Origin: Antedon mediterranea
Lineage: Eukaryota > Echinodermata > Crinoidea > Comatulida > Antedonidae
Assembly (NCBI RefSeq): GCF_964355755.1
Contig: NC_092676.1
Coordinates: 16,102,288 to 16,166,287, forward strand
Length of the DNA: 64,000 bases
Direction of reading: 5' to 3'
The notes under the pieces were generated by a model. That model saw only the letters and a program-made list of their open reading frames with translations. It was not told the origin of the DNA and searched no databases. Of this stretch, positions 45,082-62,300 are shown one piece after another (within the stretch, counting starts at the first letter, position 1; every line of letters begins with the position of its first letter). Position numbers and translations under genes: made by a program.

Positions 45082-48000
45082 ATGAAATCTCTATATTTGA
45101 GGAAAGACATGGAAGCTTCAGATTCCAGAATAGCCATAATGAAAGAAAATGTAAGTAAGAAAAGTAAATTAAGCGCCTTAATTTGTGTGTGAGTATGCCT
45201 GACTCACTGACTGAACTTTACTTTCTAGCCCAGCCTTACAGTACCTCTACTCACGCATCATTCCCTTAGATTTACTACTAGCCTAGGGTAGGCCTATATA
45301 TAGGCCTAGCTTAGTTATTAATTAGTATCAGGGTTATAATAACAACTTTGTATAATAATTAATAAGGCCATATTATCATATAGGCCTAGGCCTAATATAT
45401 ACGTGTTAACTTGAGCGTCTCCTTTTGATTTTTTGAGCCGCTGTTGTTTTTAACAAAACTTGTTTCAAATGACGTAACAAAAAAAATTTTTAATAAAATC
45501 ATAATATTCGATATTATCCTAAGCGTACAGAAATAATTGTTTATTGCATTAATAAAATGGTTTTCTTGAAATTGTATGTTGTAGTGATTCATTTGTTCAT
45601 GTTTTAAAGTCAGTTTTTAAAAAATGGTAGCGAAAATCAATGTCAATGACTTTACATAGTAAATTTTTAAAAATAAATAAATAATGAAAAAAATCCGCCC
45701 TCCCTGAAATTTATTTAGAGGTTCAGGCTCTTAAAATCCATTTTTTGGCCTATATAATAAGGCCTTTCTTTAAAAAAACCCACACACATTGGATCAATCT
45801 TTCTATCCACATACAGGATCTCTACAAACATACAGTATTCTAGACTACACATAATAAATTGTTCAATCTTTAATATTTCAGCCAGAAATTGTTTTATCTG
45901 AAGTGGGAGATGAAAGCTCTGTTTTAGTGAAGATTAAAGCATGTGCTCTATCTACAACTGATGTTCAGGTTTGTATGGCATTGTCAACCAACCAGGTTAT
46001 TCATTGAATGTGAAAATGTAATCAATTTGAAATTGTATTTATATGAAGGTAAAAAAAAATTACAGATTATATTTATTATGAAGAGGAGGATGGACTTCAA
46101 GGATGAATTTGCCAAAGTTGCAATAAAAGTTTTATCATCTTATATAAAAATACCAAGAATAATATGACACAAATATCAACTGTATACAATAAAAGGAAGG
46201 AATACTGTTTTTCAGACAATACAGGAACTTAATTTAGCATCATCTGATATTGCAATTGGGCGTGCAATTGCTGGTATCGTAAAAGATGTTGGAAACTGTG
46301 TCACATCTTTCAAACCTGGTGATGAAGTAGTGGCTCTTTTACCTCTTGACTCCCAGTTCTCTGGCTGTGCTGAATTGTGTACCGTTAATGAATTTGACCT
46401 CAGTAAGAATTATGTTTTTATTTTTCTTTAGTATCTATACTATCTATCTAACTATATCTATTATTTAGTTTTAGTATAGATATATACAGGATATCCAACT
46501 TATAATTTAATGCAATTAAATATTGTAAATTTAACTTATACTTCTGTGTTTTCCAGAAATTCTCATATTCCAAATGTGTTTTTATGGTAAAAATAATTTT
46601 TAGACCTTTTAGTCTAGTTTTTGGTAGAGTTTTCAGTTTTTTGATAAAATCAAGTATTGTAACGCCTCAGTGGAGGAAAGTGGTACAGATCATCATGGTC
46701 AAAAGACTGCTCAATTAAAAAATCACCAAAACATTATTTTCATATTATTTTAGTTATGAAACCAAAAAGAGTAGAATTTGATGAGGCAGTGGCTTGCCTG
46801 TATGAAGGTGTGAGAGCTTACACTGCATTGCAGATACAAGCAAGGATGTGTGCTGGAGAAACTCTACTAGTCATTGATGGGGCAACAGTAAGAAACATTA
46901 TTACATTTCCTAAAGATTTACATTTTTACTCTACAGTATTTGACTGTTTATGTGTCATTATTAGTCAAAATTAAACTCACTGTTCCTGTTTTCCATGTTC
47001 AAAGTAATTATATACAAAAAATAACAAAACATAAAAATGTTGTCTTTTAAACTGAAAGGAAAAGTTCAGACTTTTTTGTTAATTTCTGTCTGTCCCACCT
47101 CGTTAATATGAAGTCAATCTTTCAACTTATAAACATTCATTATCTTTTTATTATTACCTACATGATATGCTCTATTTTATAGCCAAATGGATCAACTTTA
47201 ATACAACTGGCACAGAATTGGGGTGCAAAGGTCATTGCTACGGTCAACTCGCAAGAAGAGAAGCTTTTTTTGGAAACATTTAAACCTCCACTAAGTATGA
47301 TGTTTTTCTTTGTGGATACTTTAAATCTTTGAACTATTATTGTTTATGCATTATATTGACATTTTGTCTCCTATTGAACTTTTACTAGCCTTTTAATAAT
47401 AACATTATAAAACTATAGTATACAAATGTTCTTTGGATGTATGGTTAAAAATATGGGTGCCACATTTTTAACCAGACACTCGAAAATGGCAAAAAATCTT
47501 TGTTTTATCTTATAGCTCAAACATTTACTGTTCTAAAGTAAAATTGCATTCAATTTATTTGTCGATTCCATCCTCCAATGTTGAAATATTTGTTTAAAGT
47601 TGTAAAAGTTGATGATGTTTTTTGCAGCTTCTATTGTGGATGTTAGCAATGGAAAAACTAACACAATACGCAGTGTGTGTTTAGAGGAAACAGGTGGACT
47701 AGGCATGGATATTATTGTTGATAGTGGAGGTACAGTATGTTAATTTTAATGTAAATTATCTTACCTTGTTATACCTACCCTTATTCAAAACACACAAACC
47801 AAATATCTAGTATATCCATAAAAGATTTTAAACATTTATTAAGTTCAGAAAATAAATTAAATGGTACCACTGTTTTAAAAATTTCTATTGCATTATTGTA
47901 AAATATCTTTGCAACAATATTTATTACTAGATGGTATGCTCGTTTCGCTCGCGTACCATCTAGGTCATGTCCACAGATGGTTCTCGAATACACAGTCATT

Positions 48001-55591: not shown

Positions 55592-58500
55592 ATGAGGTAA
55601 GTCTTTTCCCCATTTATATACATTATATATTTGTCTGTATCAGGGTAAACATTATTTTAAATATTATATGTTGTTAACTGTAATTATTATTTCATACAGG
55701 AAATAAATTAAATAGTTAAGTAGGCCTAAATAAAAACTACAGTATTATGGTTAGGGTTAGTTTTTCGTTCACTTGATATTAAAGGCCAGGTGCGGGCAAA
55801 AAATGTCTATTGATCAGACATTCTAATAATTATCGATCTATAGTTTCCCCTATGTTTCATAATTTTTGGGATTTTATTTGTTTTACACGAGCTTGTTGAA
55901 AATAAGCCCTTTCTTATCAGTGGGGGGATAGTTCAAATTACACAGTAAAATCCCTATTCTTTTGTACACAAATTTTGTAAATAGAGAGGCATTTTAAAAA
56001 GCTATGAAAAATAAATGGTGTTGTAAAAAATGTTATCAGATTACTAAATATAGGTAATATAACTTGAATATTACATTTCTTCTTTCAACTTCAGATTTTT
56101 ATTTTCATGCTATAGCAAAAATTATCCACCGTTATCCACCATCTTTTTTCACCGTCTAGGGAGTCACCAGACATGTTATTACATTAGGTTAACTACCTAA
56201 CTACTGAAAAAAGTCTTCCTGGTTTTTATGGTAGAATTTTGCCAAATTTTGTATTTGACTATATTAAGGGAAATTCATGTTTTTTCGTCTCGATTTCTGT
56301 TACAAATATTTGATTTATGTACAATTAACCAAATATTATATTTAAAATTCATGCCTGAACCTGAGCTTTAAAGGGAGATACTAGCATATATATTTATAGT
56401 GATAATAAGCCTAATACTTCATTAAAATGCACATGTCGTAATTAATGGAGTCAACCATCTTTTTCAACCATACCGAATTAAATGCAACCTTAACTAACCT
56501 ATAACTTACAAATCATGTAAGGGATAGTAGCATATAATATAACCTAGTTAAAACATCAGAGATAAAACAATGTTACCGTTCTATTGATACGAACCATCGA
56601 ATATTGTACCAACATGCATATGAGAAGAATCTGATCATTTGAAGTTACATAATGTCATTATAAAACTAAAAAGACATTAACATTAATGTATTCACTATCA
56701 CCACGTTTCAAATAGTTTTTAGCTGTGTTCTATATTTTATAATTATAATATAACAGATATCGCCTTTTATATCGATAAAATATGAGATATAACATCCCAT
56801 TGAGAATAATATCTAGCTCTTATCGGGAATATATTTCACTCAGCTTGCGCTTCGGAAAATATTAATTCCAAAAATATCATTCCCTCGGGGAAGTCAAATT
56901 TTATATTTTACCTTTAAGCAAGGCAATATCTGTATTATATATTATCCTTTTGAAACTGTACTGTATTTGGAAAAGAACACCTCGCTTACGCGAAATTTAG
57001 TATATGTCGTCGAACGCGAACATGGTGATGGACACGACGTCGGATTTTGGTGAATATATTTTACCAGTTTGAAATAAGTCGTAGGCCTATTGATTTAATA
57101 TGAGTAGAATTGATTACATTGCAGTCTGTGACTGAAGAACATTGGCCTTAGTACTAATCAATTTCGTTTGTTTAGCAACATTTCTATGTATATTTCTTTG
57201 TATATTTCTTTTTTACCAACCTATGCTCTCTGGACAATATACAAATCACTCATTGAACCAGTATTAAATTATTGCAACATAATATGGTGTAGTACATTTC
57301 CAAGTTATCTAGATGAGTTATTTAAACTCCAGAAAAGGGCATTACGAGCTATAACATGGTCAAAGTTTAATGATTCCATGACTGAATGTTTCTATAAATT
57401 TAAACTTCTTAAAATTGCGGATATCAATAGGTACCAAATTGGGCTCTTCAGGTATAATGTTACTACTAATCAGGACGTGCGTTTTTCATCGCTCTTTATT
57501 AAAAATGGTTCTTACCATTATTATAATACAATATCTAAAGACAAAATGAGACTCAGAAAACGTAATCGTACTTCTACCAGTTTTACTGTGTCATGCATGG
57601 GACCTAAATTGTGGAATGACTTGAATTACGAACTACAAAGTACCAAATCAATATATATATTTAAATCATTGTTTAAAGAACATTTATTATCCTTTTACAA
57701 ATAATTTTGAAATAATACTTGTTGCAGGATTTAGCTTTTTTTTTTATTATTTATGTTTTAGTTTTTAGGCTAGTTAGGGACGTAAGGGGACACAATTAAT
57801 CAAGCTCTTTTGAGTTTTTATGTGTTTCCTTTTCATCTTTATTTTATGTTCTCATATATTGTTGTATATTTTCATGATTGATGATGAATAAAGAATATTT
57901 GAATTGAATATGTTAACAATGAAATAATTTGGCCTATACTCGCGCTTTGTTTGATAATCAAAATTATGTATAGAGAGAGAGGAAAAGATACATTCAAAGT
58001 AGAAAACGATGCGCAAGTAAATCATGAGCAATGTGTTTTAACTAAATTGTGTACACCCGATACAAAATTACAATGTACATAATATGTGAAGCAAATTATA
58101 TATTTTATGGCGATTCTGTATTGGTGTTTTGAATCAATAAATAAATGTTTTTGGAAGCATCAGACGGTTCTGGGCGATTCACTCCACTCCACTCATCATC
58201 ATTATTCAGCTATTACATATAGTTACATACTTTTAACTCCATTCTTGAACTTTAGAGGCCTAGGTATCGTAATTAATAATGTTATTCGTGTGTTAATTTA
58301 CATAATTTATAACAGCAATATGGAGGACCTTGGCTGGGATGCCGAGTTGGCCATCAATATTGTCCAACGACAGAAAGAACTTTTGCTTGCACCTGACACA
58401 ATGGAATCGTATAAAGAACGTCTTGATTTTAAAGAAAGTGACGTGATAGTGAATATAAAGGTGACGTATTATGACAAAAACATTTTGATTATGCGTTATT

Positions 58501-61500
58501 CATATTTCAAAAGTTTCAGAGTTTTCTCTACATACAAACCTTTTTAGTTATACAGGTTTAACAATGAATTTTATGAAACTATCTAATTATTATTATCTTA
58601 TTGTGACTTTTAGGATATTTGGAAAGAGATTGATTATCGAGTATTAAACGAATTTGACATCAAGGTACCGCCTGGTTTCCCTGGTATTTTAGCTTACATT
58701 CACACTAAATTTTCCGGGAATCAACAGGTAGGTAGTTTTGAACATAATGCGTCACAAATCGACTTCGTCAACACCAATTTCACATTTCCACATTCTCGTT
58801 CCTCCTAATATTTTCATATTAACATGAAAATTAATCATCATCATTATCATCTGTAGTCATCTTTTATCAATGATTTCATTGTTATCACTCGTACACAATG
58901 TCATTGTTTGAAATGATTATCGTCATAATCATTTTTGTTATCTTCATCAAACCATCAGTGATATTTATCATGTCATTTCCACTTGTAAGTTGAACCAATA
59001 GACGTTAAAGAATAGTTTATTATACATATTGAAAGTATTCAAAATATTTGTTTATTTTAGGTCTTAAAGGAACTTAATTACGTGCTTCACAGTGGACCTG
59101 GCAAAGATGTTTTAACAATTGGATCATCCTACCCGGATGTTCAATTGGTCTCAGTTGAAACGCAAGAAAAATACCCCCTTTCAATACTCCATCTCCACAA
59201 GGAACGCCCTCTTCTCATTGTTACGTCTTCAGCATCCTGACCTCCGTTTCAGGTAATTGTAGTTATTAGCCGTTTTTTAACTTAAAATGATACTGATACT
59301 GATATTATTTTATTGTCCATAGTAATATAAAATAAAAATACATTTAAAACTTGCATGAAAAAATGAAAAAATATATACTTTACAAATTCAGAAGATTAAA
59401 AATACACAAAAATACATTAAAAGATAGGTTATATATAATACATACAGATTAACAAAAATTAAGGATGGAAATTTGAAGAGGAATTCGAAACTCAATAAAT
59501 GGTGCAATAAAACATAATTAATATGATTTGTAATTGATATTAACATGTTCACATCCGATCTCTCACAACTAAACGCTAACATTATAAACACATAAACCGT
59601 ATTTTCATATATGTAGGAAATATTCACTATAATTTAGACTTCAATTCAATAACATTTATACAATAATAGTAAGACAAATAATACAGGAATAATAAACAAT
59701 AAGAAACAGTAATACAATACAAAAACAAGAAGAGGCAAATAAGAGAAAGGAATGCCATCATTGCGGTCATGATTAGAAGTAACCTCAGATATTAACAAAT
59801 TGTCCCCCTGAAAAATAAATGTTTACAATTTTTTTTGTTGAATATGGAATTTTAATGTCACACAATAGTTATCCACTTTGACCAAAAATCGGATCTAAAA
59901 AAAATTGTATTTACCTAAAAAAAATTTAAAGCAAAAAATTGTCAAATTGGCTGCCAGCCAAAGGAGTTTTGGTTGAATTTAAGTGAAAAAAATTTTTTTT
60001 TATACGGAAGTTATTAACTTTATTAAAACTACAAAATAACCTATTCAAAGTCTGATTTAATTAATCTTCATTTTTCATGTTTTTGAGGGACAATACATCT
60101 TTAAATAAATAATAATATGAAACAATTAAATGTTATAACTTGAATTATGACAACAAGATTTGTCATTTTTGAAATTCTTATCGATATACTTTGAACCATT
60201 TCGTCGACAACAAGTCATTTGACCTATGGTCGGTAGACAAAATAAACTTAAAAGATAAACGAAAACGATCAAATCAAATAGTTATGAAAGAACCTCTTTT
60301 CGTTAACAACAAGTGGCAACATGACTCTGAAAGATCGTAATGTTTTTTTTGTCTAATATAGGAACTTGACATATTATGAGCAACAGTTGTTTTCAGTTAC
60401 TATGAGAGCTTGTTGATGCCGATATAGTTGAATTGTTTCAAGTTACACGAGTCTGTCTAGACAAACCCATTTTAATAGTTTTCAAAACAAGCAGACAGCA
60501 AAAAGTTGATTCTCGATTCACTCGATTCTTAAGACTTAATACTTATTATATTCTAAATGTACTTGTCACAAATATGCGACCATAAAACATGGTACATCTA
60601 TCATAACATATAGCGATTGAATGATGAATTGAAAATCAGATAAATATTGTATCCCTCTCGTAACAATAAGGCCTCTCGTAACAATAGGGAGTTTTCACAT
60701 CGGGACGGTCAATTAACAGGTTAGCAACGGTATTAAACTAAAAATCACATTTTACAACTAGATTACTTTAAAAAAACATGTTATCTTGATACCGGTAGGC
60801 CTATAGATTGTTAAACTGGTAATTAATTTAGTCATTTCCTATTAGGCCTATATTGTTTCATTGTAAACAACAACGCAAACAAATCCACCAATACGTGTTT
60901 TTAATTCATGATAATTGTTATCACTAATTTTATACTTATACTAACAATAACATACTTTGTTTTACTATGCAGGCCATCGTATTAGGTGGCGGTCTTTCTA
61001 GATTATTCGATGACTATAAAGAGAAGGTAGACTTTTTGTGTATATACCAAACAGAAGCACATCCTAAAGAACTATGGAACTTGGGCCCCGTACTTAGTAG
61101 TATCACTCAACATGCTACGATGGATGACAGAAAACAAGCAGCTATGTAGGTTTCTCCTGTCATTTTACCAATAATATAATAAAAATAGGGTTGGTAACAC
61201 ATTATATTTTGAGAAAGATGAGGACCTCTTTGAACACGCATCTTCTCTCTTAATACTATTCAAACGACAACATTTCTAACAAGTATTTTAAAGTTCAGAA
61301 TATTTTAAAAGTGTCAAATTTATAATGCTTTAAATTCTTTTTTTTTCTACTGGTGACTGCTAAATCTAACAGAACCAATGTAGGCCTACTGACCCTAACC
61401 TCTGAAAACCTGATACTTAATCGAGTAATTTGTTTAATTTTCTTCTTTTAACAAAGGAACTTGATCAAAGTTGATGAACAACATTACTCCGTTTTTACAA

Positions 61501-61712
61501 GTGATCCCTTCTCTAATACACAACTTCGTCTGGTGTGTGATACTATGGATAATCAATTCAGACTTTCCTTCAATGCTCATCCAGACAGAATATTTTTAAT
61601 AAAAGGAGATAAGATCATGTATATCGGTAGAAACATAATATCACAGATGGACGAACCGATGAGATTAATGACAGATGAGGCCCGCCAAGTACTTGAGAAG
61701 TTTTTTGAATAA
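55592..61712 (+). CDS. DIO: Iodothyronine-deiodinase-like selenoprotein
   Basis: Deiodinases are thioredoxin-fold selenoenzymes that remove iodine from iodothyronines; the substrate of this invertebrate relative is unknown. Exons: 55592-55596 (tentative ATGAG), 58316-58460, 58614-58727, 59061-59252, 60973-61145, 61457-61712. They join in phase to 294 residues if the TGA at 59238-59240 is read as selenocysteine (residue 148). The active site reads SSAS-Sec-PPFQ, with Ala two positions before Sec as in type 2 deiodinase. Other family marks are VDFLCIYQTEAHPKELW, QHATMDDRKQAA, CDTMDN and HPDRIFLIKGDKIMYIG. Unlike vertebrate enzymes there is no N-terminal membrane segment in this model; instead about 100 residues of unassigned sequence precede the thioredoxin-like part. 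ATG at 58320 is an alternative start. A SECIS element is required but was not found by eye. Confidence 0.85.
55783..56367. mobile_element. TTAA-flanked non-autonomous DNA element
   Basis: TTAA at 55779-55782 is followed by AGGCCAGGTGCGGGCA; at the other end the inverse of AGCTCAGGTTCAGGCA is followed by TTAA (56368-56371). Twelve of 16 terminal bases match. TTAA targets are used by piggyBac and Kolobok elements. No ORF. It lies in the first intron of the deiodinase-like gene. Confidence 0.5.
57168..57910 (+). mobile_element. 5'-truncated LINE (reverse transcriptase C-terminus and 3' tail)
   Basis: A 178-codon frame at 57168-57704 reads YKSLIEPVLNYCNIIWCS, LFKLQKRALRAIT and MGPKLWNDL, the C-terminal segment common to jockey/CR1-group non-LTR reverse transcriptases. 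It is followed by a 3' UTR ending GATGATGAATAAAGAATATT and a TTGAATTGAAT tail. The element is truncated upstream, as usual for LINEs. Same strand as the host gene, inside its first intron. Confidence 0.85.
59238..59240 (+). other. DIO: In-frame TGA, predicted selenocysteine codon
   Basis: The TGA is codon 60 of exon 59061-59252, followed by CCT CCG TTT CAG and a GTAATT donor. The frame is open on both sides, the downstream exons are conserved in the same frame, and the position equals the catalytic Sec of deiodinases. A nonsense mutation is the alternative, but it would have to fall exactly on the Sec site. Confidence 0.88.
59806..60108 (-). mobile_element. MITE, family 3 copy 3
   Basis: On the minus strand it begins TTTAAAGATGTATTGTCCCT and continues with AAAAACATGAAAAATGAAG and TTAATTAAATCAGACTTTG, then the TTTTGGTTGAATTTAAG-type block read in the same order as 25883-26219; it ends near GTCCCCCTGAAAAAT. 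Lies in the deiodinase-like intron after the Sec exon. Confidence 0.7.
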
Positions 61713-62300
61713 ATCGTCTTGTTTTGTATTCGTAGGCCTACTCGTTTTGAATACACACAAACTTAAAATAACAAAACTCAAATCAACATGGCAGTTAACG
61801 TGAACGTTTTAACAGAAAAGCAACACTTTTTAACTCTATAATTGCAATGAAACTAAGAATCTATTAGTAAAGGTGACGGTTAATTAACGATATTTACACT
61901 ACTTCTCCTGTGTAAATGACATCCTGATGAATATATTGTGTTTATATTAGAGATTCGAATAAAAAAAAAAACAAGAATAAACGCAATAAAAAATGAAGTA
62001 TTTTGATTAAGACAGATGATACCTACTGTAGGGTATAGTTAAGAGGTTATTGAAAAATTGTTTAAAAAAGAAATATGTCAATACGTTTATTGACGCAACC
62101 AAACATTCCTGGTTTAATGTAAAATAGTATACGCTTTATAACATTTATATTCCAAACTCAACAATAACGCAGAAGAACCCTATGACGACGATTATGAAAA
62201 TGTATTATTGTACAAATTAACCGTTCGATGTTTATTGTCTTGATGCGCTACTGTTCTATTTTGAAAATAAATGTTTTATCAATTTGATAGTGCGGTATGT
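61713..62300 (+). other. DIO: Deiodinase-like 3' UTR region (SECIS search zone)
   Basis: AATAAA occurs near 61959, 61976 and 62263. Several ATGA words and a perfect small hairpin, GTCAATA/CGTT/TATTGAC near 62077-62094, are present, but none has the ATGA...AA...GA quartet with a 10-13 bp stem expected of SECIS. The true 3' UTR may be longer. Confidence 0.4.

Follow-up and report, generated by a model that had tools for sequence, protein, structure and literature searches.

A tandem family of three intact deiodinase-type genes with a predicted selenocysteine codon in the crinoid Antedon mediterranea

The in-frame TGA at 59238-59240 of the window (the whole stretch of 64,000 nucleotides that was analysed, C7:16102288-16166287) most probably encodes the selenocysteine (Sec) of a member of the deiodinase superfamily. 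The exon carrying it would be the third of an intact selenoprotein gene, gene A, one of three intact tandem copies (genes A, B and C) accompanied by the relic of a fourth (relic D); we put the probability of the Sec reading and of membership in the superfamily, leaving the substrate aside, at roughly 0.93. The Sec reading is well supported by the constraint on the codons after the TGA, by a 3' block common to the copies, and by the presence in the genome of tRNA-Sec, SepSecS and Sec-type glutathione peroxidases (GPx). The features of the locus are as follows.

58320-61712, + strand: gene A as a whole, five exons, 291-residue product, TAA stop
58320-58460, + strand: exon 1, residues 1-47, with the start ATG; placed by splice sites and frame
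58614-58727, + strand: exon 2, residues 48-85; same length in genes B and C
59061-59252, + strand: exon 3, residues 86-149, with the active site; AG before, GT after
59238-59240, + strand: in-frame TGA, codon 145, predicted Sec; aligned with the catalytic position in DIO3 and DIO2
60973-61145, + strand: exon 4, residues 150-206 plus the first two bases of codon 207
61457-61712, + strand: exon 5, from the third base of codon 207 to residue 291, and the TAA
62150-62275, + strand: conserved 3' block of 126 bases, common to A, B, C and relic D
62160-62255, + strand: SECIS-like element, with helix I arms at 62160-62170 and 62245-62255
62182-62185, + strand: 5' ATGA of the element
62197-62200, + strand: unpaired AAAA of the element
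62201-62214, + strand: helix III of the element
62226-62229, + strand: 3' CGAT of the element
62266-62271, + strand: AATAAA poly(A) signal in the last bases of the conserved block, kept in A, B, C and D

The translation of exon 3 runs ...LLIVTSSAS-TGA-PPFQ, and past the TGA the frame remains open through exon 4, which contains IYQTEAHPKELW, into exon 5, with intron borders that are AG/GT throughout. The loop encoded by exon 4 supplies Tyr174, Glu177, His179, Pro180, Trp184 and His196, as aligned to DIO2 and DIO3. The original prediction of an exon at 59061-59252 with a TGA at a deiodinase active site proved exact in its borders and agrees with both the Pfam and the DIO core alignments described below; exons 1 and 2 lie outside the interval first noted. 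The DNA of exon 1 is 82% identical to that of B and 81% identical to that of C over 135 bases, and in blastn the alignable sequence of the copies starts no more than about 30 bases from the gene A ATG. Read upstream of this ATG, the frames of B and C soon meet stops; that of A is open for 79 codons, which include a second ATG, in a stretch that is not common to the copies. There may also be an extra exon 5' of the annotated ATG.

The gene A protein matches Pfam T4_deiodinase (PF00837) over residues 104-289 with 87.2 bits (E 1.3e-24; cut-off 27 bits), and it matches the solved cores of DIO3 (4tr3) at 1.6e-12 and DIO2 (9h48) at 3.7e-11, so the resemblance to deiodinases is far above chance. Codon 145 aligns with the catalytic residue in both structures and is followed by PPF. 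The Ala at -2 that had been likened to DIO2 is likewise seen in the alignment with the solved DIO2 core, next to a -1 residue that is Ser here and Thr in DIO2. The Pfam match covers the profile only from position 74 of 237 onwards, and residues 1-103 have no family match in Pfam or NCBIfam. Hydropathy gives no membrane anchor in this part of the protein, the best 19-residue mean being 0.58-0.61 in A, B and C for windows starting at residues 1-99. The product is therefore predicted to be soluble, with some 100 N-terminal residues of its own in place of the membrane anchor. Non-vertebrate chordate deiodinases apparently also do without the membrane, hinge and linker parts, according to an excerpt of one study (PMC8699336). 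The bacterial family deiodinase_rel (NCBIfam NF038285; cut-off 250 bits) matches the same core with 44.8 bits (residues 105-256, 1.1e-11) and leaves the N-terminal part of gene A unmatched. Searches with two short peptide patterns each, in viral contigs and in prokaryote genomes, gave no confirmed relatives. Weak PDB matches to laminin, ribosomal L20, rRNA N-glycosidase and PH1918 were dismissed as chance, as was a sub-threshold Pfam match to AAA_35.

A protein search of the genome (354 Mb, 18 contigs; E<=1) returned 17 matches, all on contig C7, of which 15 are the five exons each of genes A, B (L006) and C (L007) and two are fragments. Genes B and C are intact tandem copies on the same strand, 50-60 kb downstream of A, and encode proteins 72% and 75% identical to that of A, respectively. 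All three have the same exon lengths (141, 114, 192, 173 and 256), all three carry the TGA at codon 145, and frame damage is found in none. The Pfam model found six matches in the genome (E<=10), all within these genes; because this search proceeded exon by exon and scored the best candidates only, a divergent deiodinase may exist elsewhere.

The cluster also holds debris. Relic D (L008:4374-4487 and L008:5635-5761, at about 16192373 and 16193638 of C7) is a fourth copy whose exon 1 has an in-frame deletion of three codons and whose inner exons were found by neither tblastn nor blastn. A lone fragment of exon 4, 66 bases long and with 94% identity to gene C, lies at L005:4389-4454 (about 16170585 of C7).

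Selection on the intact copies continues past the TGA. Over codons 146-291, dN/dS is 0.20 for the pair AB, 0.28 for AC and 0.22 for BC, and for the stretch 146-206 the values are 0.17, 0.22 and 0.18 in the same order (Fisher p 1.2e-5, 1.9e-3 and 9.6e-5). Constraint is weaker over codons 1-85, where dN/dS is 0.44-0.46; codons 86-144 give 0.25-0.50, with 0.49-0.50 in two of the three pairs (p 0.06-0.09). The first in-frame ATG after the TGA is codon 199 in A and codon 207 in B and C, so re-initiation would not account for the constraint on the EAHP loop. Together with the intact exons 4 and 5, these values uphold the earlier statement that the frame stays open and conserved from the TGA through EAHP to the C-terminal block.

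Outside the exons, one segment is shared by all copies. Pairwise comparison of the loci with 1-kb flanks yields six aligned blocks per pair, namely the five exons, complete or partial, and a single 3' block; some of the exon blocks include adjoining bases, and the flanks are otherwise unaligned. Longer flanks add seven short matches between A and B and one between A and C, none of them at a place common to all three genes. Searched against the whole genome, the 3' block has four matches, in A, B, C and D, all in the cluster, with identities to A of 92% (C), 89% (B) and 97% (D). The SECIS-like element within it has its AAAA 11 bases after the ATGA, and the motif at 62226 reads CGAT in A and TGAT in B, C and D. 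A seven-pair stem between ATGA/AAAA and the GA motif is kept in four of four rows and is accompanied by a small apical stem, an anatomy which we take to be that of a form-2 SECIS. Such anatomy at matching columns in A, B and C arose in one of 4000 column shuffles, under a criterion that was fixed after the candidate had been seen.

The element is best described as a SECIS candidate that is sub-threshold in Rfam and is suggested by its conservation and anatomy. A custom scan of the flanks of A, B and C (6000, 3468 and 6000 bases) produced 6, 3 and 8 candidates, so a lone candidate carries little weight; the one retained is that inside the block conserved in all three genes. In element-only scans (E<=10), the Rfam model SECIS_1, whose gathering score is 35, was listed for C alone of the three genes, with 17.3 bits (E 0.73 over all 4227 families). 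A gathering-score Rfam scan of the whole window gave no match, and SECIS_1 was absent from the matches of a 7-kb scan at E<=5; the five sub-threshold matches to other families in that scan were treated as chance. A genome-wide SECIS_1 search, in which 150 of 6422 candidates were scored, gave no match and missed the GPx elements as well. Compensatory changes in the element were not found. A fold in which the 5' ATGA pairs with the outer TGAT (62241-62244) is possible, and RNAalifold, given the three sequences, proposes another arrangement, also without compensatory changes. A Sec-redefinition hairpin right after the TGA was considered and dropped, its folds differing among the three copies. The original prediction had named a Cys codon in orthologues, with no SECIS downstream, as evidence against it; within this genome, none of the three intact copies has Cys at codon 145 and each has the SECIS-like block, an answer that extends to these copies only.

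The host decodes Sec. Among the 46 matches listed for the tRNA-Sec model, two exceed the cut-off of 47 (79.2 and 77.8 bits), both with anticodon TCA, at C10:7998743-7998828 (L010) and C1:4969541-4969626 (L011); the weaker matches say little, since the model also finds matches in 14 of 14 control genomes, above the cut-off in five. The contig of the deiodinase cluster also carries a SepSecS gene (three matches, the best at 2.2e-105, with one TAA within it). Three GPx genes (L019, L020, L021) have a TGA in the active site, in the contexts NVASQ-TGA-G, NTATY-TGA-G and NTASL-TGA-G, and SECIS_1 matches downstream of them at 34.0, 23.1 and 20.6 bits (E 0.0017, 1.6 and 7.8). These genes serve as a positive control: all three scores exceed the 17.3 bits of gene C, and they indicate that a likely real SECIS of this genome can miss the Rfam gathering score. 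SECIS_1 was not matched downstream of a fourth GPx locus (L022), which is no true negative control because the active-site exon lies outside its match.

Could the TGA nevertheless be what the standard code makes of it, a stop? It would then close a 144-residue protein, or mark a recent pseudogene in which a Cys codon has mutated, and the two relics, one with exon 1 and the 3' block and the other with a piece of exon 4, do show that copies die in this cluster. Yet a dying gene is hard to reconcile with a TGA common to three copies whose frames are otherwise undamaged, with a dN/dS that is lower after the TGA than before it in three of three pairs, and with the conservation of a 3' block of SECIS anatomy; we consider termination at this codon very improbable. 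Little speaks for translation through the UGA with insertion of an ordinary amino acid and no SECIS. TGAC stop contexts are leaky, and the TGA-C context is indeed conserved in the three copies, but the position of the codon is precisely that of the catalytic chalcogen residue, in a genome that decodes Sec, which leaves this explanation scarcely any credit.

On the Sec reading, the mRNA would carry an in-frame UGA at codon 145, and a SECIS hairpin some 450-540 bases past the stop, just 5' of the poly(A) signal, would recruit the Sec machinery. The UGA would be decoded as Sec and translation would proceed to codon 291, a step backed by codon-level selection after the UGA. By homology with DIO2 and DIO3, the Sec selenolate in SASU-PPF would strip the halogen reductively from an aryl-iodide substrate, with a proton relay through Tyr174, Glu177, His179 and His196. 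Deiodinase half-reactions pass through a Sec-I intermediate, and the enzyme would presumably follow this usual course. An excerpt of a study of mouse Dio2 proposes a relay of Glu160, His162, His182, Ser127, Thr129 and Tyr157, plus Pro163 and Trp167 (PMC11592359). By alignment and spacing, the gene A counterparts of these six relay residues are Glu177, His179, His196, Ser142, Ser144 and Tyr174, and those of the further two are Pro180 and Trp184; relative to the relay as given in that excerpt, five of the six residues are identical and one is changed from Thr to Ser, and all six are invariant in A, B and C. The same excerpt notes that Dio2 has Ala for the proximal Cys and that Pro at Sec+2 accompanies insensitivity to propylthiouracil. 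The gene A protein has both the Ala at -2 and the Pro at +2, which would suggest DIO2/3-like behaviour such as propylthiouracil insensitivity. Deiodinase-type chemistry is likely, judging by the conserved residues.

What the substrate would be is less clear. A selenoenzyme of the same fold might act on iodinated or brominated aromatics outside the thyroid pathway, or as a peroxiredoxin-like reductase; this alternative competes with the reading above over the substrate only, and we regard it as a serious possibility of somewhat less than even odds. The similarity to DIO2 and DIO3 is confined to the core, the first 103 residues have neither a Pfam or NCBIfam match nor a hydrophobic anchor by hydropathy, and Pro occupies the position that presumably corresponds to DIO3 Phe258. 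Against this stands the retention, with one Thr-to-Ser change, of the relay residues proposed for deiodinases, as far as the excerpt describes them. A thyroid receptor search (zinc finger, E<=1e-10) gave 15 matches, among which no receptor orthologue was identified; the closest has 69% identity over 54 residues. A more specific proposal takes the small tandem family to be all the deiodinases detectable in this animal: soluble selenoenzymes without an anchor, which carry a new N-terminal domain instead of membrane anchor and linker and naturally act on some halogenated aromatic, not on thyroxine. We think this rather unlikely; if true, vertebrate thyroid-hormone deiodination would be a later, membrane-bound specialisation.

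The deiodinase-type selenoprotein that we favour for gene A shares with vertebrate DIO2 and DIO3 the signature S-(A/C)-(T/S)-Sec-PPF, the Y-x-x-E-A-H-P loop with its Trp, and the second His; its D-x-MDN-type block is that of DIO2, whereas DIO3 has MAN. It differs from them in the anchor, absent by hydropathy, in the unmatched N-terminal 103 residues, in Ser for Thr at -1, in 11-14 additional residues ahead of DTMDN, and in the Pro at the mapped Phe258. Compared by description, the clusters of Trichoplax, Lottia and amphioxus resemble A-C in their adjacent selenoprotein-type deiodinase genes, but the available part of their description has mixed strands and some members without SECIS, whereas A-C lie on one strand with a 3' block each (PMC3473315).

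The retention of Sec in an invertebrate is not in itself supported as a novelty. Selenoprotein deiodinases number 11 in Trichoplax, 4 in Lottia, 12 in Capitella and 9 in amphioxus, with tandem clusters among them, in an extract of one survey (PMC3473315); an extract on a mussel gives two deiodinase genes with TGA and SECIS elements (PMC8481496), and one on sea urchin mentions several deiodinase genes (PMC9856734). A search of one open-access library found no paper on an echinoderm selenocysteine deiodinase. The suggested bearing on the origin of thyroid-hormone signalling was overstated, since Sec deiodinases, clustered ones included, are already published for several invertebrates, at least in the portion of the survey available (PMC3473315), and the locus alone does not support such a claim.

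For a pipeline that knows TGA only as a stop, each of the three copies would end up truncated or divided, with the consequence that the genome's set of deiodinases would look absent or broken. The three copies, together with a relic deprived of its inner exons but not of its 3' block, form a compact natural experiment in SECIS conservation. The absent anchor, moreover, makes the thyroid-hormone activity of non-vertebrate deiodinase-type selenoenzymes a testable matter.

Several other features of the window deserve mention. With 42 occurrences where triplet frequencies predict 1.0, the palindrome TAGGCCTA is over-represented; palindromes of this kind are common in echinoderm-like genomes. Shortly upstream of gene A, an open frame at 57108-57704 (+ strand), with a TGA read through, resembles by eye the C-terminal part of a non-LTR retrotransposon reverse transcriptase. 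Exon-like frames at 45928-46974 (+ strand) resemble, also by eye, a quinone oxidoreductase or zeta-crystallin-like gene.
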